Below are positions 1 through 16,950 of a stretch of 31,140 nt of DNA, piece by piece. The notes beneath the pieces were generated by a model. The model had not been told where the DNA came from. It made no database searches and saw only the letters and a program-made list of their open reading frames with translations. Origin of the DNA: a virus. The position numbers and the translations under genes are program-made. Each line of letters opens with the position of its first letter. The stretch's first letter is position 1. Location: positions 1 through 31,140 of IMG/VR virus record IMGVR_UViG_3300037504_000994, one strand, 5' to 3'.

Positions 1-329
1 TGCCAATACTCCGAAACCCGGTACACGTCTACGTCCTCGGTGTGCGACGGCAGGGAGTCCACGAAATCGAGAAGATCCTCCCAGGCCCGGAGATAGGCCC
101 GTTCCGTCTTGGGGGAGTTAGCGCTGTCCGCCAACCACTGATCGAAGCACTGCGCCCACTCGCGCTTAATGTCCATCCGCGAGGGCATCGGCATCGTGGG
201 GGTATAGTCCGTCTTCGCGCCTTCGCCGAACAGCGCGATAGCCATATCCGCCTCGGGCACATCCTCCACAACCTCACCCTCGATCACCTCGACCTCAAAC
301 ACGTCCGCCTCCAGGTCCAGATCAGGCAT
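1..329 (-). CDS. Tyrosine-recombinase-like protein, N-terminal part (runs off left edge)
   Basis: Reading the minus strand from an ATG at 329 gives an open frame that leaves the window. The first ~50 residues are acidic (MPDLDLEADVFEVEV...). From about residue 57 the sequence WAQCFDQWLADSANSPKTER, then AYLRAWEDLLDFV, matches the SAM-like core-binding domain at the N-terminus of phage integrases and XerC/D-type recombinases. The catalytic domain would lie outside the window and cannot be checked. The start is supported by a GGAG six bases upstream and by an 8-nt overlap with the end of the LexA-like gene, which suggests translational coupling in a three-gene leftward operon. This is a second recombinase-fold protein besides the integrase at 3075. 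It could be a recombinase, a resolvase, or a DNA-binding regulator that uses the recombinase fold, as SP-beta MrpR does. Confidence 0.72.
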   Translation of the reverse strand, partial: MPDLDLEADVFEVEVIEGEVVEDVPEADMAIALFGEGAKTDYTPTMPMPSRMDIKREWAQCFDQWLADSANSPKTERAYLRAWEDLLDFVDSLPSHTEDVDVYRVSEYW

Positions 330-726
330 CCGATGGCTCCACATCGACCTCGTACGTGGGGGACACGACGTCCATCTCACCCCACGGCACCAGCCTCAGG
401 CTGCGATGTACGTCGGTGTCCCACTCGATCAGCCCCAGACGCGCCAGCTTCATCAAATGTCGCTGCACGTTGCTGATGCAAATTCCCACCGCCTCCGAAA
501 TCTCACGGCGCGTCGGTGCGATATCGTGGGCCGCGATGTACTGCTCCACGTAGAGCAGCACTGCCTCAGTCGAACCCATCTCCTGAATATCCAGCGACAT
601 ATCAGCGTCATTGGCGTTCCTCGTCGGCGCCACCCCGGATTCCTTCAATGCCTCGATAGCCACCGACAAATCACCGTCCATCGGCCGCCACTCACCATCG
701 ATCGCCGCCCAAATCCTCGCGCCCAT
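322..726 (-). CDS. LexA-like winged-helix DNA-binding protein
   Basis: This is a 134-aa protein. From residue ~55 the segment STEAVLLYVEQYIAAHDIAP, then TRREISEAVGICISNVQRHL and MKLARLGLIEWD, follows the pattern of the LexA N-terminal winged helix (P-T-xREI-x-AVGI, then H-L-xKL-x-GLIE). There is no C-terminal S24 autopeptidase domain, so it is not a full LexA. It may be a regulator that recognises LexA-type or related operators without self-cleavage. The start at 726 was chosen because AAGGAGG lies seven bases upstream; a longer frame upstream lacks a good ribosome-binding site. It sits between the ribbon-helix-helix gene and the recombinase-like gene, with almost no gaps. The target site is unknown; the GAAC-N4-GTTC boxes elsewhere in the window are candidates. 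Confidence 0.75.
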   Translation of the reverse strand: MGARIWAAIDGEWRPMDGDLSVAIEALKESGVAPTRNANDADMSLDIQEMGSTEAVLLYVEQYIAAHDIAPTRREISEAVGICISNVQRHLMKLARLGLIEWDTDVHRSLRLVPWGEMDVVSPTYEVDVEPSDA

Positions 727-727
727 C

Positions 728-958
728 TCACGCCTCCTTCGATCCGGCGGCCAGCCGGGCCACCGACTCACGGGCCACATTCACGCCGCGCTCCTGTAAC
801 TCCGCGGCACGCTGCTGCTCCCAGTCATCCAACTCCCGCTCGATGACCCAGCGAAGCTGGCCCGAACGGGTTCGACCCTGGGCCTCGGCCCAACGGTCCA
901 CGCGATCCCGAAACTCTGGGTCCGTGTTGTAGATCATCAGGTGAGCATTCTCGTTCAT
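728..958 (-). CDS. Ribbon-helix-helix (Arc/CopG-type) DNA-binding protein
   Basis: This is a 76-aa protein starting at an ATG with GGAGG five bases upstream. A short beta strand (AHLMIYNT) is followed by DPEFRDRVDRWAEAQGRTRS and GQLRWVIERELDDWE, the strand-helix-helix layout of the MetJ/Arc/CopG fold. The C-terminal 25 residues look helical and charged. It is the first gene of the leftward early operon, directly behind the divergent promoter, so it is a plausible autoregulator or Cro-like partner of the XRE repressor. The stop falls two bases before the start of the LexA-like gene, so the two are probably coupled. The fold is supported by pattern; the regulatory role is inferred from position. 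Confidence 0.7.
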   Translation of the reverse strand: MNENAHLMIYNTDPEFRDRVDRWAEAQGRTRSGQLRWVIERELDDWEQQRAAELQERGVNVARESVARLAAGSKEA

Positions 959-991
959 TCTTACCTCCATCGTAATCATATATGTCGAGTC

Positions 992-1008
992 TGTAAACTA
1001 TGGTTACA
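992..1008. promoter_or_regulatory. Putative operator, inverted repeat TGTAA-N7-TTACA
   Basis: TGTAAACTATGGTTACA is a near-perfect 17-bp inverted repeat. It abuts the -10 of the leftward promoter and covers its expected start site. That is where an XRE or ribbon-helix-helix repressor would block transcription. Which protein binds it cannot be told from sequence. Confidence 0.55.
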
Positions 1009-1036
1009 CTATATCATAGAACCTAATAGATGTCAA
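1008..1036 (-). promoter_or_regulatory. Leftward early promoter (sigma-70 type)
   Basis: On the minus strand a perfect TTGACA (1036-1031) is separated by 17 bases from TATAGT (1013-1008). It would start transcription near 1001 and drive the ribbon-helix-helix, LexA-like and recombinase-like genes. It is the best-looking promoter in the left region. Confidence 0.75.
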
Positions 1037-1093: not shown

Positions 1094-1510
1094 ATGACAA
1101 CCAAATTTACAGAATGGCTGTTGCAAGAAATGGAGTGGCGCGACCTCTCAATGAGGGAGCTGGCCAGACGGTCGCACGGAGGGGTGTCGCATACTCAGAT
1201 ATCTAAGGTGCTCAGCGGTCAGGCGGATGCATCTGCCGATTTCTGCATAGCTATCGCCAAAGCAATGCGGTTACCTGAGATTGATGTGCTAAGAAGGGCC
1301 GGGCATATCAACACGGCCCCTGGGGAAACAGAACGACTGACTTTACGAGAACTGTGGACTACGCTTCGGGGAATGAGCGATGACCAATTACGAGAGGTGC
1401 GCCACTACGCGCGCTTTCTCGCCAGCGGCGCCCACAGCACAGTACCGCCCGCGCCCGCAACCACGTCACAAATCGAGGGTGATCCAGAACCCGAGCCGTC
1501 AGAACCGTGA
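1094..1510 (+). CDS. XRE-family repressor (probable CI-type lysogeny regulator)
   Basis: This is a 138-aa protein. Residues ~5-65 form a Cro/CI helix-turn-helix: FTEWLLQEMEWRDLSMRELA, then SHTQISKVLSGQADASADF and CIAIAKAMRLPEIDVLRRAG. The second half (ELWTTLRGMSDDQLREVRHY) is a short helical segment and the end is a disordered proline- and acid-rich tail. There is no peptidase domain, so RecA-driven self-cleavage is unlikely and induction must use another route. It is divergent from the leftward early operon across a 135-bp control region with a palindromic operator. The last 150 bases are overlapped on the opposite strand by a small frame driven from a LexA-boxed promoter. The role as master repressor is inferred from position. 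Confidence 0.8.
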   Translation: MTTKFTEWLLQEMEWRDLSMRELARRSHGGVSHTQISKVLSGQADASADFCIAIAKAMRLPEIDVLRRAGHINTAPGETERLTLRELWTTLRGMSDDQLREVRHYARFLASGAHSTVPPAPATTSQIEGDPEPEPSEP

Positions 1511-1565
1511 CGGCCGTCCAAAGGAGCTTTGCAAATCGAAGTGGAGCACAACTTGATATCGACAT
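1359..1565 (-). CDS. Possible small SOS-controlled ORF antisense to the repressor
   Basis: A 68-aa frame starts at an ATG at 1565 (MSISSCAPLRFAKLL...). It has GAGG six bases upstream and a TATAAT promoter with an embedded LexA-type box just behind that. The N-terminal third is hydrophobic enough to be a weak membrane segment; the remainder is arginine-rich and overlaps the XRE gene in antisense, so its composition may simply reflect the repressor codons. It is not a recognisable family. The promoter is much more convincing than the protein. The real product may be antisense RNA against the repressor, a small antirepressor peptide, or both. Confidence 0.3.
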   Translation of the reverse strand: MSISSCAPLRFAKLLWTAVTVLTARVLDHPRFVTWLRARAVLCCGRRWRESARSGAPLVIGHRSFPEA

Positions 1566-1581
1566 TGTCACCTCCACTCCC

Positions 1582-1599
1582 ATTATAGAACGTCCGTTC
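1582..1599 (-). promoter_or_regulatory. LexA/SOS box overlapping a leftward promoter
   Basis: GAACGTCCGTTC (1588-1599) is a perfect GAAC-N4-GTTC palindrome, the core of Gram-positive LexA ('Cheo') boxes. In gene direction its centre, GGAC, fits the B. subtilis RNRY rule. It directly abuts a TATAAT -10 on the minus strand (1587-1582). A near-copy of the whole promoter, box and GGAGGTGA ribosome-binding site occurs at 2643-2660, implying shared regulation. Confidence 0.7.
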
Positions 1600-1701
1600 T
1601 ACCAAATGAAGGCCCCGGCCTTCCAATCGCCTGACAATCGCCGCCCTTAACGCTCTCGTAACGTCTCGATAACCCAACCTATCCCAACCCTGGAGATGCG
1701 A

Positions 1702-2138: not shown

Positions 2139-2486
2139 ATGCCGACCGATGACCTTGACATTGAAAGAGAAGAGTGGATCACTGCGGCGTTCGTTGAGGA
2201 AAAGAGGCGCCAGGTGAGAGAGGAGATCAACGACCTTCGGTATGTGACGAGTCGTCAGTACTTAAGCGGCGTGCTTAGAGCATCCGAAGATGCAAGCGAT
2301 GTGCACCTAATGCGTCTGGCCCTGGACAGCGACGATTATAATACCAACGAGTTTATGCAGAAGGCGTGTCGCATCCTAGCCGAGCTGTTGCCCGACGCGC
2401 ATCCTCTCCTGAAGGACATAGCGGATCGTCCGCCATTTGCAGCAGCATCGACGACGCCTGAAACCCGGAATCACCGTGATCGCTAA
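2139..2486 (+). CDS. Hypothetical acidic helical protein
   Basis: This is a 115-aa protein starting at ATG 2139, with GGAG six bases upstream; a TTG at 2127 in the same frame is the alternative. It is charged and mostly helical (EREEWITAAFVEEKRRQVRE), with no signal peptide, membrane segment or motif that I recognise. It follows the membrane protein by 20 bases and is probably co-transcribed with it. The last 134 bases overlap the convergent minus-strand gene ending at 2353, so one of the two C-termini may be dispensable or wrongly extended. Confidence 0.5.
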   Translation: MPTDDLDIEREEWITAAFVEEKRRQVREEINDLRYVTSRQYLSGVLRASEDASDVHLMRLALDSDDYNTNEFMQKACRILAELLPDAHPLLKDIADRPPFAAASTTPETRNHRDR

Positions 2487-2625
2487 GCGCCAAGCACTTC
2501 AACGCCTCGACAATCACCGGCCCGTGCTCCGGCGCTGCAACCAGAACAAAGAGGCCATCCGTGAACTCATAACGTGGTAGTCCGTGCGACTCGAGCTCGT
2601 CGGCATTGATGACAATCTCTGACAT
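2353..2625 (-). CDS. Hypothetical small protein under a LexA-type box
   Basis: This is a 90-aa protein (MSEIVINADELESHGLPRYE...). It starts at ATG 2625, with GGAGG six bases upstream. Behind this lies a TATACT promoter with an almost perfect GAAC-N4-GTTC box. The sequence FTDGLFVLVAAPEHGP then VIVEALKCLALSD looks like a small alpha/beta fold; the final 25 residues are low-complexity and overlap a convergent gene. No family is recognised. Because its promoter is nearly the same as the one facing into the repressor gene, it is probably switched on by DNA damage. An antirepressor or early lytic function is possible but unproven. Confidence 0.5.
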   Translation of the reverse strand: MSEIVINADELESHGLPRYEFTDGLFVLVAAPEHGPVIVEALKCLALSDHGDSGFQASSMLLQMADDPLCPSGEDARRATARLGCDTPSA

Positions 2626-2642: not shown

Positions 2643-2660
2643 AGTATAGCACAGACGTTC
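2643..2660 (-). promoter_or_regulatory. Second LexA/SOS box and promoter
   Basis: GCACAGACGTTC (2649-2660) matches GAAC-N4-GTTC at seven of eight fixed bases. It abuts a minus-strand TATACT (2648-2643). The region from the TTCAAA -35 to the GGAGGTGA signal aligns closely with the promoter at 1582-1610, so the two look like duplicates. Confidence 0.6.
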
Positions 2661-2676
2661 TACCATTTGAAGCGCA

Positions 2677-3074: not shown

Positions 3075-4013
3075 ATGTCCAGGCTCAATCTGACGCTCGA
3101 CCAAACCATCGACGGATTCCTGCTCCACTGCCAGTCCAAACGCCTCAGCCGGCACACCATCCGCAACTACCGATATGCCCTCGATAAACTGCTCACCCAC
3201 GTCCCCGGCACCACGCCCCTGGGGGACATCACCGTCCGCGACGTTTCTGCTGCCCTGGCTACCTACACCGACCTGAGCAAAAAGACGATGTCCAACGTCC
3301 ACGCCGCGCTCAGCGCGATGTGGAACTGGGCCGTCCGCCAGGAGTACGCCGACGAGAATCCTCTCGAACGCATCGACCGCCCCAAACCCGAGAAACGCAC
3401 CATCGTCCCCCTGACCGCTGACGAGATTAAGGCCCTCCTCAAATCCTGTGCCCAAACGAGGGCCTACACCCGGCCCGGCAAGCGCGCCTGTACCAACAGC
3501 CGGCCCACTGCCGTCCGGGATCGCGCCATCATCCTGACACTGCTCGACACCGGTCTCCGCGCTTCCGAGCTCTGCAACCTGACCATCGCCGACTACAACC
3601 AGCGGCGCAATCGCATTAGCGTATTTGGCAAGGGCTCGAAGGAGCGCACCATTCCCATCTCCACCCAGACCGCCGAGGCAATCTGGGAGTATCTGGCCAC
3701 GCGCAACAAAGCCACCACCCTGATGGATGAGCCCCTCTTCACCACATCCACCGGCCGTTCCTTGGACCGCCACCAACTCCGGCGCCTCCTCGTCCGCCTG
3801 GCCGACGCAGCCGGCGTCGAGGATGTCCACCCCCACAAGTTCCGCCACACGTTTGCCATCTTTTACCTGCGCAACGAGGGCGACATCTACAGCCTGCAGG
3901 AGATCCTTGGCCATAGCACGCTCGATATGGTCAAAAACTACCTGACCATCGCCCAGACCGACATCGACAAGGCCCACAAGCGCGCTTCCCCTGTCGCCAA
4001 TATGCGTTTGTGA
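3075..4013 (+). CDS. int: Tyrosine-recombinase integrase
   Basis: This is a 312-aa protein of XerC/D-like size that would integrate and excise the phage at the neighbouring att core. Residues ~5-95 form the SAM-like core-binding domain (TIDGFLLHCQSKRLSRHTIR). The catalytic domain shows all the expected residues: R162 in TGLRASEL, K186 or K189 in FGKGSKERTI, H254 and R257 in HPHKFRHTF, H280 in ILGHSTLDM, and the nucleophile Y289 in VKNYL. An arm-binding N-terminal extension like that of lambda Int is absent or very short, although arm-type repeats are present nearby. The start is clear: GGAGG seven bases upstream. An insertion between residues ~124 and 147 (AQTRAYTRPGKRACTN) is longer than in typical Xer proteins. 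Confidence 0.93.
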   Translation: MSRLNLTLDQTIDGFLLHCQSKRLSRHTIRNYRYALDKLLTHVPGTTPLGDITVRDVSAALATYTDLSKKTMSNVHAALSAMWNWAVRQEYADENPLERIDRPKPEKRTIVPLTADEIKALLKSCAQTRAYTRPGKRACTNSRPTAVRDRAIILTLLDTGLRASELCNLTIADYNQRRNRISVFGKGSKERTIPISTQTAEAIWEYLATRNKATTLMDEPLFTTSTGRSLDRHQLRRLLVRLADAAGVEDVHPHKFRHTFAIFYLRNEGDIYSLQEILGHSTLDMVKNYLTIAQTDIDKAHKRASPVANMRL

Positions 4014-14790: not shown

Positions 14791-14794
14791 ACTA

Positions 14795-14838
14795 GAACGC
14801 ACGTTCCATTGACGCCGACCACCGACATGGCGTATACT
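14795..14838 (+). promoter_or_regulatory. SOS-boxed sigma-70 promoter of the moron gene
   Basis: GAACGCACGTTC (14795-14806) is a perfect GAAC-N4-GTTC box that fits the B. subtilis RNRY rule. Two bases later TTGACG (14809-14814) and, after 18 bases, TATACT (14833-14838) form a strong promoter, with a start expected near 14845. LexA bound there would cover the -35. Confidence 0.75.
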
Positions 14839-14844
14839 GTAGAT

Positions 14845-15010
14845 GAGCCTGCAGCTCACACACAGCCGAAAGTCGAATGCACATATTCCAAAGAAGCATG
14901 GTACAATGATCATGCAGGTCCCTGATCGGCGGCTTTCTCTGTGAGTTGCAGGCTCCGGAAAGTGCAGCGGTCGGGGATCTGTCTATGTTACAGAGCGAAG
15001 GAGCCTGCAA
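14845..15010 (+). ncRNA. Structured leader with alternative hairpins (possible RNA switch)
   Basis: Segment A (14845-14860, GAGCCTGCAGCTCACA) can pair with segment B (14940-14955) over 16 bases with one G-U. The last 11 bases of B, TTGCAGGCTCC (14946-14956), can instead pair perfectly with segment C, GGAGCCTGCAA (15000-15010). C contains the Shine-Dalgarno sequence and ends at the base before the ATG. A:B would leave translation open; B:C would close it. A begins at the predicted transcript start. Smaller hairpins, GCATG/CATGC (14896-14915) and TCTGT/ACAGA near 14980, lie inside the loops. A possible inner promoter, TACAAT (14902), would give an RNA without A. Confidence 0.55.
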
Positions 15011-15322
15011 ATGCCTACACACTCTGACCCACCCGCGGATGCGTCCGCACCGGAAGCCGACCTGCCCCGAGAGCAGATCCTCACGATGACCCTGGGCGAA
15101 TACCTCGCCCATATGGGCCGCAACGAAACGATCTGCCGCCGCAACCATTTCACCGGCGCCGTCCTCGCCGCCCTGGAGCAGACGCCCCTGGGCGAATGGC
15201 CCGAGACCGTCGCCCACGCCGTCACCGTCAGCGTCCAACAAGCCGCCGTCGACCATCCTGATCCTCAGTATCTCCTCTGGGAAATCGGCCGCGCCATCGT
15301 CGTTGCCTCCATCGAGCTCTAG
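15011..15322 (+). CDS. Plus-strand moron gene inside the tail operon, unknown function
   Basis: This is a 103-aa protein (MPTHSDPPADASAPEADLPR...). It is the only gene on the plus strand within the 26-kb late region, inserted between tape measure and hub. It has its own promoter, LexA-type box, structured leader and terminator, the defining layout of a moron. The first ~20 residues are disordered; residues 25-103 look like a compact helical domain (LTMTLGEYLAHMGRNETICR, WPETVAHAVTVSVQQAA, YLLWEIGRAIVVASIEL). No signal peptide or clear membrane segment is present. The start has GAAGGAG eight bases upstream. The family is unknown. Control suggests a product made on DNA damage and tuned by RNA structure; anti-host, anti-repressor or exclusion functions are all open. 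Confidence 0.7.
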   Translation: MPTHSDPPADASAPEADLPREQILTMTLGEYLAHMGRNETICRRNHFTGAVLAALEQTPLGEWPETVAHAVTVSVQQAAVDHPDPQYLLWEIGRAIVVASIEL

Positions 15323-15328
15323 CCCCAC

Positions 15329-15362
15329 GCCCCTCCCCCGCATATCGACGTGGGGGAGGGGC
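15329..15362. terminator. Bidirectional terminator-like hairpin after the moron gene
   Basis: GCCCCTCCCCC (15329-15339) pairs with GGGGGAGGGGC (15352-15362), an 11-bp perfect stem with a 12-base loop. It lies between the convergent ends of the moron gene and the tape measure gene. No T-tract follows on either strand. Confidence 0.7.
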
Positions 15363-15378
15363 CCTTCGTCTGTCCGCA

Positions 15379-16950
15379 TCACCGCAGCCGTGCTCCCCGC
15401 AGGATCCCGCGATCCTCCAACTCCCGGATCACCCGCTGGGCCGTCGCGCCGGGGCTTCCCGCGTCCGGAATCACGATATCGCCGTTCCACACCGACCCAC
15501 CGTTGTTCACCGTGCCCCCACCGCCGCCCGTCAGCGGCGTAATAAAGACCCCGGATGACGTCGCCCGCATAAACTCAGGCTGCCCGCCCTCTCCGACCAC
15601 GCCCGTCCGGCCCGCCGGCAGGAACCCGCCCGTCGCGAATCCTCGGCTATATGCCCCACCGGTGATATCATCCATAAACTCCTCGCGACCACCGGCGCGC
15701 TCCTGGCGCACCTTCATCAACATCTCAATCTCCAGCCGGGTGGGAACGTCGTTCAGTGCATCGCGAATCCTGTTGATCGCATCGCGAACCCGGTCGCCCT
15801 GGCTGGCTGTTTCCTGCATCGAATCCCGCAGCTTGCTTTGATTGTCCAAAAACGCCGATGTCGCGGCTTCCGAATCCATCAGCGCTTGGTTATATTGATC
15901 GTGCGCGACAGCCGTGTCGCTGGTTCCGTTTGCCAGATCCCGCTGTACCCTGGCCACCACGCTGTTAGTTTCCGCGTAACGCTCTGCCAATCCGGTATAC
16001 CGTTGCGTTTCCGCGCTCACAGCCTGCAAACGGCCCTCAATGTCGTCTAAACCGACGCGGCTTTCTCCCCAGATTGTTCGGGTGCGATTCATCATTGAGT
16101 TGTAATGCGCCTGGCTGGCCGCCGCGTCACCGAATATCCGTGCATAATCGTTGATCGCCGACTGTTGATCGTTGACCTCCCGCGTCACTTTTGCGATCCC
16201 CCTGGCCATCGTGCCCAATATTGGGGCGAATCCACGACCCAACTCCGACTTTAGGTCGGCCCACGCGGCTTTAGCCTGCAGCACCGATGTGACGTTATCC
16301 TCGACGGTGCCATCCAGTTTCTCATATTTCTCATTCATCAACTCCAAGATCGCAGTGTCGAACGCCTCGTTAGCGTCCATTCCCGCATCCTTAAGCTCTT
16401 GAATGCGCTCCGTAGCCTCCTCGACGCCGATGCCGAAACTGTCGACTCGGGCCAGGGAGTCATTTGACATCATGATTTGAAACTGCTGCATCGTTCCGCC
16501 GAAGCGCCCGCCCAGCGCGTCGACGTTGCGCGTGATATCCGCGATGCCCTCCGCGCTGTCGGCCAGCCCCAGCGCCATCAGGTTGGTGGCGTCTTCCATC
16601 AACTGGGCCTCGCTGCGCGTGTAGAGCGTTGCCTCCTGGAGCTGATCGAGCATTATTGTCGCGCGCTGGCTACCGCCCGCGATGCGTTCAAAGGAACGCT
16701 CGGAGCGTTCGGCTTGCGCGCCGAGCTCGGCCAACTCCACAGTGACCTGTGCTACCTTCCTGGCCGCAGCTACAGCGCCGATGGCCTTGAGCGTGTTGGT
16801 GAGCTTGGTGAAACCGTCGTCGGCTTGACGAGACCCAGCGTCTGCCTTGCGCGTCACATCGTCAAGTCCCTGTAACTCCTGCTTGGCATCCTGGATGTCG
16901 CGGGTAGCCTCATCCAGCATACTCAATATGATCTCGACCCTACTCGCCAT
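15379..16950 (-). CDS. Tape measure protein (short)
   Basis: This is a 523-aa protein that sets tail length and is threaded through the tube. The N-terminus (MASRVEIILSMLDEATRDIQ) and the long helical stretches with Ala/Gln/Glu heptads are typical. The C-terminal Gly-rich segment (GGAYSRGFATGGFLPAGRTG, EGGQPEFMRATSSGVFITPL) is a hallmark of tape measure C-termini. It follows two tail-assembly chaperones, as expected, overlapping the second by 11 bases. It is short for the family; at about 0.15 nm per residue it predicts a tail of roughly 80 nm. Confidence 0.85.
   Translation of the reverse strand: MASRVEIILSMLDEATRDIQDAKQELQGLDDVTRKADAGSRQADDGFTKLTNTLKAIGAVAAARKVAQVTVELAELGAQAERSERSFERIAGGSQRATIMLDQLQEATLYTRSEAQLMEDATNLMALGLADSAEGIADITRNVDALGGRFGGTMQQFQIMMSNDSLARVDSFGIGVEEATERIQELKDAGMDANEAFDTAILELMNEKYEKLDGTVEDNVTSVLQAKAAWADLKSELGRGFAPILGTMARGIAKVTREVNDQQSAINDYARIFGDAAASQAHYNSMMNRTRTIWGESRVGLDDIEGRLQAVSAETQRYTGLAERYAETNSVVARVQRDLANGTSDTAVAHDQYNQALMDSEAATSAFLDNQSKLRDSMQETASQGDRVRDAINRIRDALNDVPTRLEIEMLMKVRQERAGGREEFMDDITGGAYSRGFATGGFLPAGRTGVVGEGGQPEFMRATSSGVFITPLTGGGGGTVNNGGSVWNGDIVIPDAGSPGATAQRVIRELEDRGILRGARLR

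Follow-up and report, generated by a model that had tools for sequence, protein, structure and literature searches.

The stretch of DNA analysed here (the window) is a linear virus record of 31,140 bases, and the features relevant to this study are collected in Table 1. A rightward gene encodes an XRE protein which, from gene order and relatives, would be the lysogeny repressor. No match to a self-cleaving peptidase was found in its 138 residues, as is expected of the target of an antirepressor, and this agrees with an earlier claim that the repressor cannot cleave itself. The neighbouring ORFs (1507-1650, 1696-2118 and 2127-2486) have no Pfam match to a metalloprotease of the ImmR-ImmA type. 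Relatives of the XRE protein among the viral contigs are limited to L002 and L003, both of which keep a small leftward gene opposite the XRE gene; none were found in the genome collection, by either an alignment query or a single-protein query, nor in the phage and plasmid records. Relatives of the portal protein were likewise absent from the viral contigs and the phage records.

Table 1. Features around the XRE repressor gene and the two boxed promoters of the window.
Feature	Position	Strand	Details
Second gene of leftward operon	322-780	-	LexA-type winged helix (LexA_DNA_bind 9.6e-11); no peptidase domain
First gene of leftward operon, RHH/CopG-like	728-979	-	ATG 979 or 958; weak matches
Leftward early promoter	1008-1036	-	TTGACA-17-TATAGT; 11/12 consensus matches; strong
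XRE/HTH_3 repressor, 138 aa	1094-1510	+	HTH_3 8.2e-08; other HTH matches; no peptidase domain
68-aa mini-ORF (predicted SOS-induced small protein, candidate antirepressor)	1359-1565	-	ATG 1565; stop at 1359
Shine-Dalgarno GGAGG	1571-1575	-	5 nt ahead of ATG 1565
Boxed promoter 1	1582-1610	-	-35 TTCATT 1610-1605, weak; 17-nt spacer; -10 TATAAT 1587-1582, perfect
SOS (LexA) box 1	1586-1601	.	TAGAACGTCCGTTCTA; perfect palindrome with GAAC-N4-GTTC
Core of box 1	1588-1599		GAACGTCCGTTC; in 17-nt spacer of minus-strand promoter
90-aa gene under boxed promoter 2	2353-2625	-	Coding by codon composition; no family match
Boxed promoter 2	2643-2671	-	TTCAAA-17-TATACT
SOS box 2	2647-2662	.	TAGCACAGACGTTCTA; one mismatch in GAAC-N4-GTTC
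Integrase gene	3075-4013

The strong promoter of the leftward operon is the presumed target of XRE repression. An imperfect palindrome (TGTAAACTATGGTTACA) at 992-1008, beside the -10 element of this promoter, was noted by eye as a candidate repressor operator, and a dyad scan by script under stricter limits yielded no entries. The winged-helix product of the second operon gene, for which no counterpart was seen in eight related records, could re-close the SOS promoters by binding to their boxes, or it could act on another target.

Box 1 lies in the spacer of boxed promoter 1 and abuts its -10 element, and is thus placed to block this promoter as expected of a LexA-controlled antirepressor unit. 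The promoter is directed on the minus strand into the 3' end of the XRE gene. GAAC-N4-GTTC is the motif of Gram-positive LexA (PMC3323433), and from this motif, whose Gram-positive consensus may not be that of the host, LexA would be expected to act at box 1. A box abutting TATAAT was obtained in none of 300 dinucleotide shuffles of the window, and the same was true of the combination of box, -10 element, GGAGG and start codon (0/300). The boxed promoter is therefore far beyond chance, and the promoter which the first-pass annotation had placed at 1582-1599, pointing left into the 3' end of the XRE gene, was borne out in its box, its perfect -10 element, its Shine-Dalgarno sequence and its ATG at 1565. 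The box alone is not significant, as the observed number was reached in 20 of the 300 shuffles, and stand-alone boxes were dropped as evidence for this reason. A further perfect GAAC-N4-GTTC at 14795-14806, located at the end of ORF 14792-15490 and lacking an adjacent -10 element, may be due to chance.

The 68-aa frame that follows the promoter overlaps the XRE gene by 152 nt on the opposite strand. Since 64% of synonymous recodings of XRE leave this frame open by chance, its openness was dropped as evidence of coding. The codon composition of the 18 codons outside the overlap is unlike that of the other genes of the phage, and the XRE gene itself also scores low. Support for translation was found instead in L109, a related GC-rich phage (GC 58%) which has a homologous XRE gene and a boxed promoter with a 71-aa ORF in the same place. 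The two mini-proteins align (PRFVTWLRARAVLC--CGRRW in the window and PGFVNWLRRRSPICQRCERFW in L109) with a score of 57 against a shuffled mean of 24, and none of 2000 shuffles reached this score, a result that carries a selection from about 25 candidates as L109 was picked by eye from the census loci described below. The annotated frames gave the best score, the next being 42. The repressors of the two phages are homologous (score 114 against a shuffled maximum of 48), and an explanation of the peptide likeness as a by-product of this homology was set aside because the phase of the mini-ORF relative to the repressor frame differs between the phages, so that repressor homology cannot make the match. 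Homology of the region at the DNA level could contribute to the peptide similarity.

A second relative, L029, was reached by its boxed-promoter pattern and has an integrase 46% identical to that of the window, with no closer relative found in the integrase search. Its 56-aa ORF lies outside the repressor gene without overlapping it and aligns with the ORF of L109 with a score of 55, compared to 32 or less in other frames, whereas the match between the mini-proteins of the window and L029 alone is not significant (p 0.08). Both copies of the boxed element in the window, as well as the relatives, preserve a close spacing of Shine-Dalgarno sequence and ATG. Searches of annotated phages with the mini-protein gave nothing useful. 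A single-sequence AlphaFold2 model has helices at residues 6-27 and 30-53 that form a two-helix hairpin with a low mean pLDDT of 64.8, and both structure models made were of low confidence. The similarity to the L109 mini-protein supports translation of the 68-aa ORF, which we regard as likely on the basis of these comparisons.

Boxed-promoter patterns were then scanned in IMG/VR and their surroundings were read by script. A total of 105 sites were found including the window, 84 of them non-redundant, although some of the sites are surely chance matches or other SOS genes such as the recA-like L097 and L098. With the window left out, the nearest XRE gene within 600 nt was convergent and downstream in 18 cases, divergent in four, upstream on the same strand in five and co-directional downstream in none, a convergent bias with a binomial P of 6e-6 against equal chance. 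The XRE profile was seeded partly from such loci, yet the orientation bias stands because the profile was applied alike to both strands and to all positions. Five loci with the nearest XRE gene upstream (L005, L053, L071, L083 and L091) also have a convergent XRE gene downstream, and the convergent HTH repressor of L085 was missed by the profile. In about two dozen loci, the boxed promoter drives a mini-ORF that is convergent on a short XRE repressor, the stop codon of which is 90-274 nt from the box. These mini-ORFs are mostly 32-71 aa in length and are preceded by a Shine-Dalgarno sequence. The layout had been presented earlier as an unusual switch, a description that no longer applies now that the layout has been seen repeatedly in phage contigs unrelated to one another. 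When three regions of the module were used in nucleotide searches, no annotated example of it was matched.

Two other types of site were observed in the census. In L016 (contig IMGVR_UViG_2833186175_000003) an SOS-boxed 34-aa ORF (MEYKDEIIKMIENVEDKDLLLYLYVFIKRKVEAE) looks like the convergent mini-proteins, and no XRE gene was recognised in the short flank. In several related contigs (L042, L056, L058, L060, L094, L102 and L111), a conserved ORF of about 470 aa (MAFTVKTEAEKIF...) is preceded at about 80 nt by the boxed-promoter pattern. This ORF may be a structural gene, and an SOS-type promoter would be odd in front of such a gene.

Apart from a small protein, the first-pass annotation had proposed that the SOS transcript acts as RNA. 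Under such a mechanism, the transcript would silence the repressor by antisense pairing or collision of RNA polymerases and read into the early operon, and the ORF would be incidental. The 152-nt antisense overlap and a frame that is so often open by chance fit this proposal, and a precedent is provided by lambda OOP, a short RNA that covers the 3' end of cII on the opposite strand (PMC2327240). The relatives point the other way. In 12 of about 24 non-redundant relatives, the SOS strand has an intrinsic terminator no more than about 75 nt from the mini-ORF stop, often inside the 3' end of the repressor gene (L004, L014, L018, L052, L055 and L078), and such terminators occur almost nowhere else across the repressor gene. 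The transcript in these loci therefore covers the mini-gene and at most the repressor 3' end, and not the early operon. In about half of the loci the mini-ORF and the repressor gene abut without overlap. Across the relatives the antisense overlap is thus short as a rule and the transcript does not feed the early operon, and neither antisense silencing nor feeding of the operon could be retained as the main mechanism. An incidental ORF also does not fit with the conserved spacing of Shine-Dalgarno sequence and ATG or with the similar mini-protein in L109, and OOP itself has little or no role in the removal of CII after SOS induction (PMC2327240). Taken with the strong promoter that the leftward operon has of its own, these observations make the RNA mechanism unlikely.

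In the window itself, the minus strand shows no intrinsic terminator from 1575 to 980, and none was seen in L109 and L029 either. Read-through to the RHH gene (ATG 958 or 979), as suggested earlier, is therefore not blocked by a visible terminator, and this gene has a strong promoter of its own at 1036-1008. With no terminator visible, RNA effects in the window, whether antisense or through operon read-through, may still occur.

We consider a LexA-controlled mini-antirepressor to be the best explanation of this locus, and probably the correct one given its sequence and layout. The steps that we infer, namely LexA binding, translation, binding to XRE and induction, would proceed as follows. In the lysogen, host LexA on 1586-1601 would block the boxed promoter while XRE keeps the leftward promoter (1036-1008) shut. 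DNA damage would remove LexA, and a transcript with a short leader would begin near 1575, from which ATG 1565 would yield a small two-helix protein. This protein would bind XRE, the most likely site being the helical C-terminal region or its vicinity, and the early promoter would be freed. An XRE repressor that is unable to self-cleave might thus answer to SOS, and the antisense overlap at the XRE 3' end would be a result of tight convergent packing with at most an auxiliary role. The relatives strengthen the earlier idea of a small SOS-made antirepressor of 68 aa, although its action as an antirepressor is a prediction.

Likeness between mini-proteins and repressors was observed in several of the census loci. 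In L085 and L014, the C-terminal hairpin of the repressor is matched by the mini-protein of the same locus with a score of 56 each (0/2000 shuffles), and the mini-protein of L018 matches its own repressor with a p of 0.0045. The own repressor ranks first in five loci (L085, L014, L018, L052 and L062, the ORF of the last being long and uncertain in its start), and an excess of own pairs was found across all loci (Wilcoxon p 0.011). The mini-protein of the window has no similarity to the C-terminus of its own repressor (score 21, p ~0.6), and mimicry of XRE by this product was looked for at the sequence level and not found. In addition, the mini-proteins of L029 and L109 are of one type although no relationship can be detected between the repressors of these two phages, which is odd for a specific antirepressor. 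Because of these two observations, the antirepressor role in the window is assigned by position and analogy.

The occurrence of one mini-protein type beside unrelated repressors in L109 and L029 would also be in line with a product aimed at the host, either a small peptide that is toxin-like or acts on membranes or a factor that modulates host machinery. Its placement would then reflect the clustering of lysogeny genes. Small SOS-induced toxins are known, and the mini-proteins of the window, L109 and L029 are rich in Arg and Trp and hydrophobic. This possibility appears quite improbable, as the convergent placement at 90-275 nt from the repressor is too consistent for it and the products of L085, L014 and other loci mimic their own repressor.

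The proposed mini-antirepressor resembles several known systems. Non-cleavable repressors are served by the LexA-controlled antirepressors Tum of phage 186, AntC of N15 and GfoA/GftA of the Gifsy prophages (PMC3121763), and the window, compared with them by description, shares the SOS box over the promoter, the small product and a non-cleavable repressor as the presumed target. The LexA unit of the Gifsy prophages is located well outside the immunity region (PMC3121763), whereas the unit in the window adjoins and faces the repressor gene. SinI of Bacillus subtilis disables the XRE repressor SinR by pairing with a hairpin of the C-terminal type (PMC3163267). The predicted product of the window would similarly be a small two-helix protein, and the mini-proteins of L085 and L014 resemble the hairpin of their partner. 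SinI is, however, under the control of Spo0A and not LexA (PMC3163267), no similarity could be detected between the window protein and its own repressor, and neither this protein nor the mini-proteins of six relatives had a Pfam match to the SinI family. A SinI-like contact is thus the more tentative part of the proposal and is drawn by analogy.

Lambda OOP RNA is comparable in being short and in lying antisense to a phage regulator gene at its 3' end, and its overlap can be regulatory (PMC2327240). It differs in acting through RNase III (PMC2327240), whereas the window, with its 152-nt overlap, has a Shine-Dalgarno sequence, an ORF with a similar counterpart in a relative, and no OOP-type terminator closure on the minus strand from 1575 to 980. 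In the TF-smORF modules of Vibrio and related phages (Qtip, smORF72), a small phage protein also inactivates the repressor (PMC10432266), but expression of these modules depends on a phage transcription factor and not on SOS. No description of a tail-to-tail SOS mini-gene or of a SinI-like SOS antirepressor in phages was found in the open-access literature, a scope that takes in few subscription-journal papers or preprints and does not establish priority.

The facing layout looks like a common switch that has apparently not been described before, and not like an antisense arrangement peculiar to one phage. It is possible, although we offer this tentatively, that temperate phages of several bacterial lineages share a module in which a LexA-boxed mini-gene lies tail-to-tail with the gene of a non-cleavable XRE repressor. 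Its product of 30-70 aa, sometimes a copy of the C-terminal hairpin of the repressor, would dissolve the repressor on DNA damage, and the short antisense overlap may sharpen the switch. Many temperate phages have short XRE repressors without self-cleavage, and it is often not clear how DNA damage is sensed in these cases. An SOS box abutting a -10 element, a mini-ORF and a tail-to-tail repressor gene would together form a recognisable motif from which the inducers could be predicted, and a size of often 30-60 aa would explain why such inducers are missed in annotation.

A second copy of the boxed element, complete with box, -10 element and Shine-Dalgarno sequence, is located at 2629-2672 as part of a 44-nt direct repeat with 80% identity. 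The gene of 90 aa under this promoter has a coding score of +0.193 in its non-overlapping part, with a GC content by codon position of 0.67/0.35/0.70, and a query with its protein found no relatives in the viral contigs. That the ORF at 1565 and the 90-aa gene at 2625 are both accessory SOS genes, the true inducer being the 90-aa product or another element of the phage, is very unlikely, for although box 2 has the same design of promoter and Shine-Dalgarno sequence and its gene a good coding composition, this box has a mismatch in the SOS motif, its product is without relatives and its unit does not face the repressor gene.

The 90-aa gene overlaps the 3' end of the plus-strand ORF 2127-2486 and sits between the repressor gene and the attP/integrase region; it is conceivable that it encodes an SOS-controlled excision factor. 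Beside the integrase gene, a stretch resembling the 3' half of a tRNA (GGCGGTTCAAATCCGCC...) was observed at about 2850-2888, which was not called by ARAGORN and is probably the attP core.
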